From: Deltaproteobacteria bacterium RBG_13_61_14
GTDB lineage: Bacteria; RBG-13-61-14
Reading direction: 5' to 3'
Assembly: GCA_001797815.1 (NCBI GenBank)
Contig: MGQK01000007.1
Span: forward strand, 19,367 to 38,070
DNA length: 18,704 nt
Below the pieces are notes generated by a model. That model searched no databases, was not told the DNA's origin, and saw nothing but the letters and a program-made list of their open reading frames with translations. A program made the position numbers and the translations under genes. Each line of letters begins with the position of its first letter. Position 1 is the first letter of the stretch. This document shows, in pieces, positions 5,480 through 12,277 of this stretch.

Positions 5480-5493
5480 AAGCCGGAAGCGCG

Positions 5494-6252
5494 ATGCAAG
5501 ATCTGGTCCGGATGTGGTCGAACACCCGGATGGTGGTGCTCAGCGCGGTCTCGGCCGCGGTCTATGCCGCGGTCCTGATCCCGTTCAAGGCCATCCCCGT
5601 GATCCCGGGCCTGACCGAGATCCGGCCGGCCGCGGCGCTCCCGCCCCTGTGCTCGATCCTGTTCGGCCCGGCCGGGGCCTGGGGATCGGCCTTCGGCAAC
5701 CTGATCGGCGACTTCTTCGGCATGCTCGGGCCCGGCTCGATCTTCGGCTTCCTCGGCAACTTCCTCTACGGCTACATCCCCTATCGCGCCTGGCGGGCGC
5801 TCTCGGACCAGGAGCCGCAGCCTCTCTCAGTAACCGGCTGGGCCAAGCTCCTGCTCGCCTTCCTCCTCGGCGCCGGCGCCTGCGCCCTGGTCATCGCCTG
5901 GGGCGTGGACCTCCTGGGGCTCGCCCCCTTCAAGGCCCTGGTCAACATCATCCTGATCAACAACGCCCTGATGGCGCTCTTGATCTCGCCGTTCCTGGTG
6001 GCGATCCTTTACCCCATGATCAAGAACTTCGGGCTCCTCGCCACCGACCTGCTCGAGCCGGCGCCAAGGTCCCGCCTTTCCCGGGTAGGACTGGTCCTGC
6101 TGATCATCGGCATCCTCGGCGGCCTGCTCGCCGGCAACCTCCTGGCCTTCGGCGCCCTCAACCCGGCCGGGCTCGGCCTGCCCGCTCTCTCTCTGCCCTG
6201 GCTCGTCTCCCCCTTCCTTTTGATCCTCCTGCTTGGCGTCGTCCTGGCCTAA
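5494..6252 (+). CDS. Integral membrane protein, ECF transporter S-component (QueT-like) type
   Basis: 252 residues with six or more hydrophobic segments. Near the N-terminus 'LSAVSAAVYAAVLIPFK' is followed by 'IPGLTEIRPAAALPPLCSILFGPAGAWGSAFGNLIGDFFG'-like content (residues about 37-76) and 'GPGSIFGFLGNFLYGYIPYRAWR', the pattern of substrate-capture (S) proteins of energy-coupling-factor transporters, which bind vitamins or precursors of them. After about residue 190 come two more membrane helices rich in Leu/Gly that go beyond a usual 180-residue S-component. No ATPase or EcfT gene is nearby, so it would rely on a shared module elsewhere or act alone. It starts 14 bases after the epimerase stop with a weak GGAAG. 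The ligand is unknown. A longer in-frame start inside the epimerase gene at 5323 is unlikely. Confidence 0.75.
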   Translation: MQDLVRMWSNTRMVVLSAVSAAVYAAVLIPFKAIPVIPGLTEIRPAAALPPLCSILFGPAGAWGSAFGNLIGDFFGMLGPGSIFGFLGNFLYGYIPYRAWRALSDQEPQPLSVTGWAKLLLAFLLGAGACALVIAWGVDLLGLAPFKALVNIILINNALMALLISPFLVAILYPMIKNFGLLATDLLEPAPRSRLSRVGLVLLIIGILGGLLAGNLLAFGALNPAGLGLPALSLPWLVSPFLLILLLGVVLA

Positions 6253-6489: not shown

Positions 6490-6735
6490 TTAATGAACGG
6501 TATTGAGTCTTGGCCTGAGCGGTCGGCTTGCCCCTGGCCCCTTAGTTGGGAATAGCCACTTTTTCGTCCCCCGGCCAATTTTCAAATATATCCAATAAGA
6601 TCTTGGATTTTTGAAAATCCGGCCCGGAATTCAATCTTCTTGTAATTCACATCACTAAATTTAGAAAAATTTATTGTTTAATATCAATGGGTTGTGGCCA
6701 TTCTTAAAAAAAATACCAGATATTGTATTTTTTTC

Positions 6736-6763
6736 TTGACAAATAAAATCAATGTGCTACATT
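6736..6763 (+). promoter_or_regulatory. Strong predicted promoter of the 6770-7004 RNA
   Basis: A perfect TTGACA (6736-6741), 16 bases, TACATT (6758-6763), in strongly AT-rich DNA that includes oligo-T and AAATAAAATC stretches upstream. The start point would be near 6770. No protein gene follows on this strand before the terminator, so the promoter fits a dedicated RNA gene. Confidence 0.65.
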
Positions 6764-6769
6764 CAGGCA

Positions 6770-7004
6770 CAAGATTCGTGATCTTTGAAATTATCGGGCG
6801 GCCTCTTCAAGACATTTAAGGAGGAATAAAATTGGCCTGTCCGCGGCGGTTGGTGCCGATTAGCTCACCACCCAACCCTATGGACCCTTGCTGCCGCCGC
6901 GGGAGGAACGATGGAAGCGGAAACCGAGGTTGCCCGATAATCACCCTCCGCCAGGGAGGGCCTTCAAGTGGGGAAGCTGCCAGGCTTCCCCACTCTTTCT
7001 TTTT
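6770..7004 (+). ncRNA. Candidate structured non-coding RNA, about 235 nt, unassigned family (6S-like outline)
   Basis: A complete transcription unit without a protein: promoter, fold, terminator. The closing helix is formed by 6790-6805 (ATTATCGGGCGGCCTC) and 6926-6941 (GAGGTTGCCCGATAAT), 16 consecutive pairs of which two are G-U. A large purine-rich internal loop follows (6806-6840 and 6903-6925). An apical helix then pairs CCGCGGCGG (6841-6849) with CCGCCGCGG (6894-6902), with a further hairpin from GGTG (6852-6855) and CACC (6866-6869). After the closing helix comes a CCCTCC/GGAGGG hairpin (6944-6960) and the terminator. Long closing stem, wide bubble and apical stem resemble 6S RNA in outline, but I find no decisive 6S sequence signature. 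It lacks the marks of SRP RNA, RNase P RNA and tmRNA. An orphan cis-regulatory RNA is the other possibility, though no gene follows. Confidence 0.6.
6967..7004 (+). terminator. Strong intrinsic terminator
   Basis: AGTGGGGAAGC (6967-6977) pairs perfectly with GCTTCCCCACT (6984-6994) across a six-base loop, followed by CTTTCTTTTT (6995-7004). It ends the predicted RNA that starts near 6770. Confidence 0.85.
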
Positions 7005-7011
7005 AGGGGCT

Positions 7012-7203
7012 ATCCACCGATTACGCCGATTGCGCAGATTCTCTTCCCGTTTCCGTGACCGTTGCCGTGAACGTGAACGGAATCTCAGCAGGCAGTAATC
7101 GGTAGCCAGGTCAAGAAAGAAACATCCACGAAGAGACACTAAGGGACACAAAGTAAGAAAAGAGAAGGATGATCATCCACCGATTACGCCGATTGCGCAG
7201 ATT
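7012..7203. repeat. Two direct copies of a 29-bp spacer repeat
   Basis: A 29-base unit that begins ATCCACCGATTACGCCGATT and ends GCGCAGATT occurs identically at 7012-7040 and 7175-7203. Degenerate GTGAACGTGAACGG and TTGAACTTGAAC runs and ACGAAGAGACACTAAGG-type sequence lie between and after them. From 7204 to 7470 there are more decayed spacer repeats (CGCAGATT, GACACGAAGGGCACTAAG) and a TCGACTGAGCTC fragment also seen near 9387. No gene was found there. Two copies 134 bases apart do not make a CRISPR array. Confidence 0.6.
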
Positions 7204-7470
7204 TTTTTAACCTTGAACTTGAACCTGAACTTGAACGGAAAAAGGCTTGAGGCATGAAGCAAGAGGCTTGAGACCCCGGATCGGAATGAAGAAAGAAGCT
7301 CCGCAGATTTCGCGGCTCGACTGAGCTCGCCGAAGTCAGATTACGCAGATTCAAGAGAGAAGATTATCCACGAAGGACACGAAGGGCACTAAGATTCTTT
7401 GTCAACTGAAGACTTTCAGGGCGCGGGTGACCTTAGAGGCTGGGGTGGCCGCGAACCCCTAAGTTTGAAC

Positions 7471-7854
7471 TCAAAAATAGTGAATAGTCAGGCTCTGACC
7501 CCAATCCTCTGGCTTATTGAGGGCATCATTAAATGCGGCATCCCAACCAGGAACACGATAACTATAATCAGTAAGACCTTTCCACCTTTTCTCTTTCGGA
7601 ATATCTTTCATACACTCATCTTTCGAACCGCACGATCCAAGTTTTTCCCAATCATCATCACGATCTGGAAACCACATTCTTGTAACAAAACCTGAGCAGT
7701 CTATTCCAGTCGCCCAATTAATATTTTCACCGGGTGTCTGATGCCATGAGTGTGCCCCTAAGCCGAGTCCTTCCGTTATCTTCTTATTTACCCGCTCTGG
7801 TGTATCGAATCCAGTCCATTTGTAAGGCGTGCCGGTATAATCCCATGTCGCCAC
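7471..7854 (-). CDS. NlpC/P60-like fragment, 3' part of a frameshifted and truncated gene
   Basis: 127 residues from a GTG at 7854. 'WATGIDCSGFVTRMW' (Cys 53) is the catalytic-cysteine motif of NlpC/P60-type cell-wall peptidases or amidases. The conserved His block that should follow about 50-80 residues later is missing. The reading frame is open upstream of the GTG and reads 'GGQNKYRCDFVATWDYTG', which continues naturally from the 'RFEYGEW' end of the 7871-8101 frame; one base too many near 7875-7895 would explain the split. The last 10 codons (W-G-Q-S-L-T-I-H-Y-F) are encoded by the GGGGTCAGA repeat at 7494-7505 and flanking DNA, so the true C-terminus has been replaced. It is probably a pseudogene, unless the shift is a sequencing error or a programmed event. 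Confidence 0.55.
   Translation of the reverse strand: MATWDYTGTPYKWTGFDTPERVNKKITEGLGLGAHSWHQTPGENINWATGIDCSGFVTRMWFPDRDDDWEKLGSCGSKDECMKDIPKEKRWKGLTDYSYRVPGWDAAFNDALNKPEDWGQSLTIHYF
7494..7505 (-). repeat. GGGGTCAGA repeat copy that replaces the 3' end of the NlpC-like gene
   Basis: On the minus strand ATTGGGGTCAGA, the core of the element at 9652-9681. The frame of the NlpC/P60-like gene runs into it and stops 23 bases later, which suggests insertion of, or recombination at, this repeat. Confidence 0.55.
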
Positions 7855-7870
7855 AAAGTCACATCTATAT

Positions 7871-8101
7871 TTATTTTGGCCTCCTAATCAACCATTCCCC
7901 ATACTCAAACCTTCCTACCGAATTATCGAAGTAATAGAAGCCGTCCATACCCCAGTAATCACTAATGTCTGAGTTTCTTGTTCCGCAAACGAAAGGATGA
8001 AATGCATAACAATCTGCGTCCTCAATGGTTTGAGTATGTGCAATCTGCACTCGAAAAAAAATTAATAGAATCGCAATTAATATGGTTCGCTTCATTTTCA
8101 T
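7871..8101 (-). CDS. Secreted protein N-terminus, 5' part of the frameshifted NlpC/P60-like gene
   Basis: 76 residues from ATG 8101 (or 74 from ATG 8095). A signal peptide 'MKRTILIAILLIFFRVQIAH' is followed by 'DADCYAFHPFVCGTRNSDIS' and 'GFYYFDNSVGRFEYGEWLIRR', then a stop. GGGAGG lies seven bases before ATG 8095, which is the better start by spacing, while ATG 8101 overlaps the upstream stop as ATGA. Either way translation is coupled to the beta-propeller gene. The frame stops right after tandem AGG-AGG codons and 'CCA AAA TAA', and the missing remainder lies in the +1 frame (7471-7854). I read both pieces as one broken exported cell-wall-active protein. An extension upstream to 8155 is unlikely because it lies inside the previous gene. 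Confidence 0.55.
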   Translation of the reverse strand: MKMKRTILIAILLIFFRVQIAHTQTIEDADCYAFHPFVCGTRNSDISDYWGMDGFYYFDNSVGRFEYGEWLIRRPK

Positions 8102-9336
8102 TCCTCCCTTTCTGCTTCCCAAACCACAAGAGATGCACCCGCCTCGCTGGTGCAAATTTGATAAACGTTTCCTGAATAATAATCAACATAAATATATCTA
8201 GATCGTCTACCCTTAGGGTCAATCAGATCCACTGAATCTTTACAAAGAGAGATATATCCGATCAACTCGCGAGCATTATTAAATATTCCCATTTTGTAAT
8301 TATCTACTTGTGGTTCAGAATAACGAACTTCACGAAATTCACAGTATATATTATTATTAATATCAACTGCAATTAATAAACCAAGTTTTATTGTTAGGGA
8401 CGGGTCATAATCAATTTTATTTTTAATATCCTCACGCGAAAAGAAACCTTTATTTTCTTCTCTTGTTTTAATCAAGCTTAGAAAATAAGGTGCCTTATTT
8501 TCATCTATTTTATCGCAGGGTATAACTAATCTGGGAGGCCAGCCAGGATTATACTTGGCTATTAATTCATCTACTCTGGTTTCTGTGGAGAATGGATCGC
8601 ATTCATAAAAATAAGTCTGTTTATCAGCATGATTAAGACGATCCCTTGATAAAAAATATAATTTACCGTCTTCTGACACGAAATGATCTGTTTGTTCATT
8701 AAAAGAACGAGGCAAATAATCTGATTTAATGGCCTGTAATGATGAATCAAGGATTCTGTTCAAACAATAGATATTACCTTTTCCATCAATTCCAAGTGGC
8801 CTATCCGAATCATACCGTTTGTTAAGTAATCTACCAGTAGAATCATAAACCTTTAAACCACCGCCATCCACGCTCAGATCAAAAATAAGGATATGCCCCT
8901 CCTTGTTTACCAATAAACCACGAGGGCCAATAGGAGATCCACAATCTAAATCCTCAGGGCCTCTGCAATTTGATTGGTAATGCAATGAATCCTCCCCCGA
9001 ATTCCACGGACCAAAATCTTTGATCAGCCTTTTCTTGTATTCAATCATCTTTGGAGGTTTCTTGGCGCTTTCCTGAGCCAGGGCCGCTTCTGTGCCTTCC
9101 ACTTCTCCCTTTTCCATCTTCGCCAACCTCTCCTCATCTCCCCCCGGCGCCGGCATTGCTCCCGCAACTTTGCCCGGCTGATCCCCCTTCTTCACCACCT
9201 CGCCTTCCGCTCCCGCTCCCTTGAGATAATCTTTTCCCCACAACCACCATCCCCCTCCAACCAACACCAAGAGCACCACGATCAGGACTATCGCCCAGCT
9301 CACTTTGCTCTTGCTACTCTTCTTTTCCTTATTCAT
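8098..9336 (-). CDS. Membrane-anchored protein with a beta-propeller-like (NHL-type) extracytoplasmic domain
   Basis: 412 residues from ATG 9336, chosen because GGGGAG lies five to six bases upstream; the GTG at 9342 is too near that site. A Lys/Ser-rich start, one membrane helix (about residues 13-32, 'WAIVLIVVLLVLVGGGWWLW'), a charged Gly/Ala/Glu linker to about residue 92, then about 320 residues with repeats of the kind 'PRGLLVNKEGHILIFD', 'PLGIDGKGNIYCLN' and 'LIAVDINNNIYCEF', the x-G-N-I-Y blade pattern of six-bladed NHL-like propellers. Probably faces the periplasm and binds a partner. The first 94 codons are GC-rich like the genome, the rest is AT-rich with A/T-ending codons, suggesting a native anchor joined to foreign DNA. 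The stop overlaps the next start (ATGA), so it is coupled to the NlpC-like gene. Confidence 0.75.
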   Translation of the reverse strand: MNKEKKSSKSKVSWAIVLIVVLLVLVGGGWWLWGKDYLKGAGAEGEVVKKGDQPGKVAGAMPAPGGDEERLAKMEKGEVEGTEAALAQESAKKPPKMIEYKKRLIKDFGPWNSGEDSLHYQSNCRGPEDLDCGSPIGPRGLLVNKEGHILIFDLSVDGGGLKVYDSTGRLLNKRYDSDRPLGIDGKGNIYCLNRILDSSLQAIKSDYLPRSFNEQTDHFVSEDGKLYFLSRDRLNHADKQTYFYECDPFSTETRVDELIAKYNPGWPPRLVIPCDKIDENKAPYFLSLIKTREENKGFFSREDIKNKIDYDPSLTIKLGLLIAVDINNNIYCEFREVRYSEPQVDNYKMGIFNNARELIGYISLCKDSVDLIDPKGRRSRYIYVDYYSGNVYQICTSEAGASLVVWEAEREE

Positions 9337-10146: not shown

Positions 10147-10174
10147 GTCAATAACTTCCATGTATCGCAATAAG

Positions 10175-10771
10175 ATGCCGCTGGTGCTGGCTTCGGCTTC
10201 TCCCCGCCGGCGGGAGCTCTTGGGCCTCGCGGGGATCGAGTTTGAGATCATCCCCAGCGCCATTGCCGAGACCAACCATGCCCCGGGCGACCCGGCCAGG
10301 AGCGCCCTCGGCTTTGCCCGGGAAAAGGCGGAGAATGTGGCCCGTCGTCCGGGCGCGGACGCGGGCCGCTGGTATCTGGGGGTGGACACCATCGTGATCC
10401 TGGAGGGCGAGATTCTGGGCAAGCCCCGGGACCGGGAGCAGGCGCGCCGGTTTTTGCAGAAGCTCGCGGGCCGGGGGCACCAGGTAATCAGCGGCTATTG
10501 CCTGTTTTGGCCGGTGGAAGGCAAGCGGGTGGAGAAGGCGGTCCGCTCGGAGGTTCAGATCCGGGCCTTGATCCCCGCGGAGATCGAGGCCTACCTGGAC
10601 ACGGACGAGCCGTATGACAAGGCCGGGGCCTACGCGGCGCAGGGGATGGGCGCGGCGCTGGTGGAGGCGATCGCGGGTTCTTACACCAACGTGGTGGGCC
10701 TGCCCATGGCCGAGCTGGTGAGCGACCTCTTGCGCCTCGGGATCATCGAGCCTCGGCCCGGTCATGGCTGA
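10175..10771 (+). CDS. maf: Maf family nucleoside triphosphate pyrophosphatase
   Basis: 198 residues from ATG 10175. Maf proteins hydrolyse non-canonical or pyrimidine (d)NTPs to monophosphates, cleansing the nucleotide pool, and were first linked to septum inhibition. All family landmarks are visible: 'LASASPRRRELL' at the start, 'LGVDTIV' with the catalytic Asp, 'LGKPRD', 'VISGYCLF', 'YDKAGAYAAQG' and 'GSYTNVVGLP'. The 'YDKAGAYAAQG' form is that of the dTTP/UTP pyrophosphatase group. An ATG at 10160 would add five residues but lies only seven bases from the predicted transcription start; no Shine-Dalgarno sequence is clear for either. The end overlaps yggS by eight bases, so translation is coupled. 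First gene of a five-gene operon. Confidence 0.93.
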   Translation: MPLVLASASPRRRELLGLAGIEFEIIPSAIAETNHAPGDPARSALGFAREKAENVARRPGADAGRWYLGVDTIVILEGEILGKPRDREQARRFLQKLAGRGHQVISGYCLFWPVEGKRVEKAVRSEVQIRALIPAEIEAYLDTDEPYDKAGAYAAQGMGAALVEAIAGSYTNVVGLPMAELVSDLLRLGIIEPRPGHG

Positions 10772-11456: not shown

Positions 11457-12277
11457 TGCGCAAGCAACAGACCGTGGGTTTTGTGGGGGCCGGCAACATG
11501 GCCGGGGCCATGATCCGGGGCCTGGTCAAGAGCGGGGTGCCGGGCAGCCGGGTCCTGTCGTTTGACGTGGACCGCAACAAGCTCCAGACCCTGCAGAAGG
11601 CCTATCGGATCCGCGCCGCGAAAAGCAACGGCGAGCTTTTCCGGTCCTGCGACGTGGCGGTGCTGGCGGTGAAGCCGCAGGTGATGGAACCCGTGCTCCG
11701 GGAGATCGGGCCGCTTGCCAAAAAAAGCCCCCTGGTGCTCTCCATCGCGGCCGGAATCCCGATCAGCCTGATCGCCGGATACCTCGGGCCTGACGCCCGG
11801 ATCGTCCGCGCCATGCCCAACACGCCGGCCCTGATCGGCAAAGGCGTGTCCGGTTTTTACGCCGGGCCCAAGGTGCGGCCGGCCGAAAAGGCCCTGGCCC
11901 GGGAGATCCTTTCCGCCCTGGGCCCGGCCCTGGAGTTTGCCAACGAGTCGCTGCTGGACGCGGTGACCGGTCTCTCCGGCAGCGGTCCGGCCTACGTGTA
12001 TCTCGTGATCGAGGCCCTGGCCGACGGCGGGGTGAAGATGGGGCTAACGCGGGAGGCGGCGCTCACGCTGGCGGCGCGCACGGTGGCGGGTGCCGCGGCG
12101 ATGGTGCTGGAGACCGGGGAACACCCGGCCAAGCTCAAGGACATGGTGACTTCGCCCGGGGGCACCACCATTGCCGGGCTGGCGGTGCTGGAGCGGGCGC
12201 GGGTGAGAAGCGCGCTGATCGAGGCGGTGGAGAAGGCCACGCTGCGGGCGCAGGAGTTGGGGAAGCCGAGAGGGTAG
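11453..12277 (+). CDS. proC: Pyrroline-5-carboxylate reductase
   Basis: 274 residues. Catalyses the last step of proline synthesis, NAD(P)H-dependent reduction of 1-pyrroline-5-carboxylate. 'VGFVGAGNMAGAMIRGL' near the start is the Rossmann dinucleotide motif, 'VLAVKPQVMEPVL' the second cofactor block, 'IVRAMPNTPALIGKG' the conserved middle, and 'VTGLSGSGPAYVYLVIEALADGGVKMGL' with 'LKDMVTSPGGTTIAGL' the C-terminal dimerisation and substrate domain. The first ATG (11453) overlaps the yggS stop as ATGA; a second ATG follows at once at 11456. A 34-base gap with GGGAGGAGG leads to the divIVA-like gene. Confidence 0.96.
   Translation: MMRKQQTVGFVGAGNMAGAMIRGLVKSGVPGSRVLSFDVDRNKLQTLQKAYRIRAAKSNGELFRSCDVAVLAVKPQVMEPVLREIGPLAKKSPLVLSIAAGIPISLIAGYLGPDARIVRAMPNTPALIGKGVSGFYAGPKVRPAEKALAREILSALGPALEFANESLLDAVTGLSGSGPAYVYLVIEALADGGVKMGLTREAALTLAARTVAGAAAMVLETGEHPAKLKDMVTSPGGTTIAGLAVLERARVRSALIEAVEKATLRAQELGKPRG

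Follow-up and report, generated by a model that had tools for sequence, protein, structure and literature searches.

We analyzed an 18,704-nt stretch of the genome of Deltaproteobacteria bacterium RBG_13_61_14, hereafter the window, in which the gene for a QueT-family membrane protein (an ECF-type substrate-binding component; PF06177, E 1.5e-15) occupies positions 5491..6252 of the + strand. About 480 nt beyond the end of this ORF, on the same strand, lies the promoter of a predicted transcript of ~235 nt (6770..7004), and the next convincing + strand gene downstream is Maf at 10160. The original prediction of this RNA had stated that its strand carries no protein gene within 2 kb on either side, which holds downstream but not upstream, where QueT ends at 6252. 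Dispersed intergenic repeats of the CCGATTACGCCGATTGCGCAGATT and CACGAAGGACACGAAGGGCAC types, present in several genomic copies, start at the end of the terminator and extend over 7003-7450. They are followed on the - strand (7471-8155) by two adjacent ORFs in different frames, with a signal-peptide-like N-terminus and then a GIDCSGFV stretch resembling NlpC/P60. The pair looks like one frameshift-split secreted-protein gene and had no Pfam match. Within the Maf gene (10160-10771), ARAGORN called a tRNA-Arg at 10174-10267, which is probably false.

The transcription signals of the unit are unusually complete. A perfect -35 hexamer, TTGACA (6736-6741, + strand), is separated by a 16-nt spacer from the -10 hexamer TACATT (6758-6763), as the original prediction had described, and the -10 is in addition extended (TGcTACATT). 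The score of this promoter is tied for the highest in the 18.7-kb window, and it alone combines a perfect -35 with an extended -10. The start of the transcript was inferred from the position of the -10. At the other end, an intrinsic terminator (6967..7004, + strand), the strongest in the window, consists of a 12-pair stem with a 4-nt loop and a T-rich tail; the stem (6967-6994) contains 11 Watson-Crick pairs and one G-U pair, where a perfect 11-bp stem had been predicted, and is followed by CTTTCTTTTT. The unit therefore has what is expected of a stand-alone small RNA, its own promoter and terminator without an ORF. Genome-wide statistics were drawn from ~0.3-1 Mb of stretches of the window's genome. 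In ~314 kb, searched on both strands, this locus was the only one at which a strong terminator came no more than 450 nt after a promoter scoring at least 10/12; the same 314 kb contained 45 such promoters and 6 strong terminators, from which ~0.2 pairs would be expected by chance.

Directly upstream of the -35 is an AT-rich palindrome, AAAAAATAC-N8-GTATTTTTT (6708..6733, + strand), which may be an UP element or a regulator site. Its use as the operator of a regulon was rejected, since no palindrome with at most one mismatch was found next to another promoter in 976 kb of the window's genome.

All sequence features listed in the original prediction were found in place when the sequence was re-checked, including the closing helix, the GC helix and the small hairpin described here. 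The predicted fold (all elements on the + strand) begins with a 5' hairpin, AAGATT-CGT-GATCTT (6771..6785), that appears in both the MFE and the centroid structure. The closing helix P1 (6790-6805/6926-6941) comprises 16 pairs, two of them G-U. Its 5' strand is followed by a variable single-stranded stretch (6806..6831) containing the Shine-Dalgarno-like AAGGAGG (6819-6825). In the MFE structure, an apical rod helix (6840..6850 with 6893..6903) includes the nine-pair GC helix CCGCGGCGG/CCGCCGCGG at 6841-6849/6894-6902 and leads to a C-rich apical loop, CACCACCCAACCCTATGGACCCTTGCT (6866..6892). The rod of the window copy is interrupted by a wide, asymmetric bubble, and the MFE structure places a small hairpin, CCCTCC-GCCAG-GGAGGG (6944..6960), between P1 and the terminator.

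On average, one helix of at least 16 pairs at the distance spanned by P1 is found per ~100 kb of strand. The 235-nt sequence folds with z = -3.6, and none of 200 shuffles folded equally well. When the terminator was removed, z fell to between -2.4 and -2.9, a value reached by ~16% of intergenic 160-mers from the same genome; the fold by itself therefore proves nothing. Taken alone, the window thus offers a transcription unit that is good but whose fold is unremarkable, and most of the evidential weight is carried by a homologue in a related genome.

In line with the original statement that no family signature was recognised, none of 4227 Rfam families matched the window at the gathering score, and permissive scans (E<=10) of the RNA region and of the homologue described below returned only sub-threshold chance matches. 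The RNA is single-copy in its genome. It had been suggested as a possible refutation that the region might prove to be another dispersed repeat; this was rejected, as the repeats on the 3' side start at 7003 and the unit itself is unique. A blastn search of 60 genomes and 3 genomes of the phylum yielded no genuine homologue; matches of 21-27 nt in four genomes (G029, G042, G061 and G063) all fell inside protein genes or at their start and are attributed to chance. A covariance model built from the single sequence (R1) recovered only the window itself in searches of 12 and 386 genomes. Phage, plasmid and viral collections contained no homologue, and three exact 16-mer matches in viral contigs were not accompanied by the RNA.

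The homologue was found through gene order. Two genomes of the same order, G001 and G002, which belong to another family, were the nearest relatives examined (ProC 57-58% identical; 57% for G001). In G001, the QueT gene (L010 10577-11332) is immediately followed by a matching unit with a perfect 12/12 promoter, TTGACA-16-TATAAT, which shares with the window an identical -35, the 16-nt spacer and the extended -10 TG. In a spacer-to-spacer comparison, a 44-nt block ending just past the -35 was 86% identical between the two genomes (E 4.8e-10; Smith-Waterman score 56 against a shuffle maximum of 34). This block includes the palindrome, whose G001 counterpart is AAAAAATGC. A second conserved block lies, collinearly, ~110-120 nt downstream of the first; it spans 27 nt at 85% identity, with ACCCTnnGGACCCTTGCT exactly common to both, and coincides with the apical loop, the most conserved stretch of the RNA body, which includes CACCACC..ACCCUnnGGACCCUUGCU. 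For the RNA body, the Smith-Waterman score was 32 against a maximum of 31 in 3000 shuffles. The inferred start lies 20 nt before P1 in the window and 18 nt before it in G001, where it is placed near 11545. The G001 RNA is shorter (~160 nt versus ~235 nt), and relative to it the window RNA has an extra hairpin (6944..6960) and a separate terminator; the 5' hairpin and the Shine-Dalgarno-like stretch of the window also have no counterpart there. The unit is thus conserved in a relative, and in one relative only.

Sequence searches fail for the small RNAs of poorly sampled phyla, which have hardly been charted as a result, and this locus illustrates the problem. Blastn missed the G001 copy, which was recovered through gene order, and R1 detected it (9.6 bits) only when the search was restricted and run without filters. 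Whether any relative retains the compensatory pairs of P1, which had been named as a decisive test, first appeared to have a negative answer until synteny supplied the homologue. A test of the kind "no relative keeps the helix" can therefore come out negative for technical reasons. A model built from both sequences (R2) gave significant matches among 386 genomes only to the window and G001; seven weak matches (17-21 bits) are not homologues and either resemble protein-coding DNA or fit poorly. Family members downstream of QueT can be sought with the pattern ACCCTNNGGACCCTTGCT.

Folded independently, the G001 RNA is likewise predicted to be a rod, with z -3.67 and none of 200 shuffles reaching its stability. 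It is closed by GGTGGCCTCG/CGAGGCCACC together with four A-U pairs, the counterpart of P1. All 13 comparable pairs of P1 are kept; both sides have changed in three of them (C-G to U-A once, U-A to A-U twice) and one side in two (G-U to G-C), and sliding the 3' partners lowers the pairing to ~32-52%. In the covariation test, 61 of 500 shuffles equalled this result, which with two sequences is suggestive and not significant. The alignment used (A5) was made after excising 6806-6824 and 6903-6910 from the window sequence. Because only two sequences are available and the alignment was built after these excisions, the compensation in P1 serves only as supporting evidence. The lower stems cannot be aligned, and the middle stems are wholly different in sequence. 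The 27-nt conserved block, located in the apical region, is mostly unpaired in the G001 fold, and in both RNAs an apical stem lies directly 3' of it (the G001 equivalent of the apical rod helix is GGCAAG/CTTGCC). Apart from a large apical loop, the internal loops of the G001 rod are all small, and there is no central bubble. Its P1 is followed directly by the U-run TTTTTCTTTT, in place of the separate terminator of the window; P1 thus seems to serve as terminator too, ending the RNA at ~160 nt.

The QueT proteins of G001 and G002 are 48% and 49% identical to that of the window, and none of the other window genes that were tested had a match on the G001 contig. Conversely, a search of ~1 Mb of the window's genome found none of the three genes that follow the RNA in G001. 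The conserved unit thus consists of QueT and the RNA, the remaining flanking genes being different. No copy of the RNA was found in the G002 assembly, in which QueT sits at a contig end, and no such unit was found in the QueT-downstream regions of nine other genomes, whose QueT loci were searched with R2. In other phyla (L012, L013, L016 and L018), a gene for an ATP-binding protein directly follows the QueT-type gene in an ECF-operon-like arrangement; this position is taken by the RNA unit in both the window and G001.

The main rival to a stand-alone small RNA is a cis-acting leader, riboswitch or attenuator, which we consider unlikely on balance. In such a scheme, P1 of G001 would act as a terminator hairpin, carry a conserved sensing loop at its tip and control the gene downstream, and the window copy would be what is left after separation from such a gene. 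The G001 layout fits this: P1 and TTTTTCTTTT are followed, 85 nt on, by a same-strand ORF of the FAA-hydrolase family at 11788. The same layout occurs in published riboswitch candidates, where the tip of a terminator stem bears conserved nucleotides (PMC8632094), and the HMP-PP, guanidine-IV and HRC-8-4 candidates described there share with the G001 RNA a strong stem, a U-run and a conserved tip. The repeats that begin right after the window terminator (7003) could also mark a rearrangement. However, the window RNA differs from these candidates in having a separate terminator, no downstream gene, a linked gene that lies upstream and no Rfam match. A strong terminator closes the unit, and no same-strand gene follows for 3 kb; the conserved neighbour, QueT, is upstream; and the downstream gene of G001 has a promoter-like site of its own (11731-11759; 9/12, extended -10). 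No alternative helix is conserved, and the two members do not share a co-directional downstream gene, as a leader would require. The original prediction had noted an outline resemblance to 6S RNA and had considered either a lineage-specific 6S or a new RNA class. A second, lineage-specific 6S or Ms1-like RNA, whose rod bubble would bind RNA polymerase, would be consistent with the size (~160-235 nt), the strong promoter, the closing stem and the large bubble of the window copy, and the case of Ms1 shows that sequence models can miss 6S-like RNAs (PMC9130861). Ms1, from Actinobacteria, is also lineage-restricted and was found by synteny where sequence searches fail; it differs, as described, in its length of ~300 nt, its central bubble and its end hairpins (PMC9130861). 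Closer comparison did not support the resemblance. A canonical 6S RNA is already present in the genome (L005 1501-1679, G000:C81:64965-65143; RF00013, 85.3 bits), flanked by zapA and a 5-formyltetrahydrofolate cyclo-ligase (ygfA-like) gene, whereas the RNA studied here has QueT as its neighbour. RF00013 had no match in 6600-7100 at E<=10, and none in the order-mates G001 and G002 even at E<=1. 6S RNA is defined as a hairpin whose central unpaired bubble resembles an open promoter (PMC9130861); the bubble of the window copy is wide and asymmetric, and the G001 rod lacks a central bubble altogether. Despite the similar size range, promoter and closed rod, the RNA therefore differs from 6S in having no conserved central bubble and in carrying its conserved sequence in a large apical loop, and this identity appears improbable.

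Two readings based on motifs within the window copy are slightly less probable still. A small-protein gene could begin at TTG 6832, 6-7 nt after the full Shine-Dalgarno match AAGGAGG (6819-6825), or at ATG 6911 after GGAGG (a 9-codon ORF), and short in-frame ORFs are indeed present. The TTG frame, however, has no stop before the terminator and reads through it, the Shine-Dalgarno-like region is absent from G001, and there is neither a Pfam match nor a common reading frame with synonymous changes; in the sole frame that reads the core alike in both RNAs, the differences fall at codon positions 1 and 2 and none at the third. Sequestration of CsrA, to which we give equally little credence, is suggested by two csrA genes in the genome, arranged in tandem ~0.75 kb apart (L044/L046, G000:C4:13054-13952), and by 8 GGA in 197 nt, including 4 ANGGA (P ~0.03 versus dinucleotide shuffles). 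Like CsrB and RsmZ, the RNA is an intergenic unit with a promoter, a terminator and some GGA motifs in a genome that encodes CsrA. CsrB and CsrC, however, contain 22 and 14 motifs (PMC11882849), and unpaired GGA motifs are too few here: GGA is not enriched (P 0.15, dinucleotide shuffles), most copies are paired, and just one GGA is shared with G001, which lacks the GGA-rich stretch. The lack of conservation of both the Shine-Dalgarno-like site and the GGA motifs argues against a small-protein gene and a CsrA sponge alike. Least probable of all is a chance pairing of promoter-like and terminator-like sequences around spacer DNA without a functional RNA. The fold of the terminator-less body is indeed not exceptional among the intergenic DNA of this genome, yet chance cannot explain why promoter, helix and loop are conserved collinearly in G001.

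The absence of an Rfam match, the single copy and the syntenic homologue support the original claim that an unassigned structured RNA has a complete transcription unit here, and the locus very probably encodes a real, independently transcribed small RNA outside the catalogued families. We favor, with a probability of about 0.58, a stand-alone, sigma70-transcribed, structured non-coding RNA that represents a family new to Rfam, with two members so far, and whose loop acts in trans. Transcription would start near 6770 from the strong extended -10 promoter, with the AT-rich palindrome upstream, and would end at the intrinsic terminator near 7003. The RNA would fold into a rod closed by P1, the stems of which drift freely, and would display the C-rich apical loop (CACCACC..ACCCUnnGGACCCUUGCU), which is conserved and for the most part unpaired. 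From the computed transcription signals, fold, homologue, conserved loop and compensated P1, we infer transcription, action in trans and a partner for the loop. A conserved loop on drifting stems suggests that the loop contacts something and is the working part, and the best reading is accordingly a new, narrowly distributed RNA that works through its apical loop.

As the unit stands alone and the genome encodes Hfq, a trans-acting RNA is our best guess. Hfq-class trans-acting small RNAs with C-rich seed loops are similar in being stand-alone, in ending at a T-tailed terminator and in exposing a C-rich loop, in a genome with an Hfq gene; the present RNA differs in being longer and more structured and in showing no global complementarity to start sites. 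In a duplex-energy test, complementarity of the loop at 387 start regions did not exceed that of shuffled loops, so that a general anti-Shine-Dalgarno action of the loop is unsupported; the mean of the interior control in this test was spoiled by sentinel values for cases without a duplex, which leaves the start-region numbers unaffected. Because the test concerned general action, specific targets are compatible with its outcome, and pairing of the loop with one or a few target RNAs is the version that we tentatively prefer. Binding of a protein by the loop seems a weaker prospect. On a similarly low footing, we consider that the RNA could constitute a new class confined to one deep-branching order, linked to QueT, with a strictly conserved C-rich loop borne on a freely drifting rod; the partner of this loop, whether RNA, protein or ligand, would be unlike that of any known riboregulator. 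The analysis yields a concrete RNA gene whose start and end are predicted, together with a conserved loop and a linked transporter gene.

A second long-range helix in the window, at 16304-16320/16420-16436, has 17 pairs, one of them G-U, and contains a GC hairpin. It lies in the spacer between a gene for a HEAT-repeat protein and a DUF1287 gene, and may be either a further structured spacer or a repeat.
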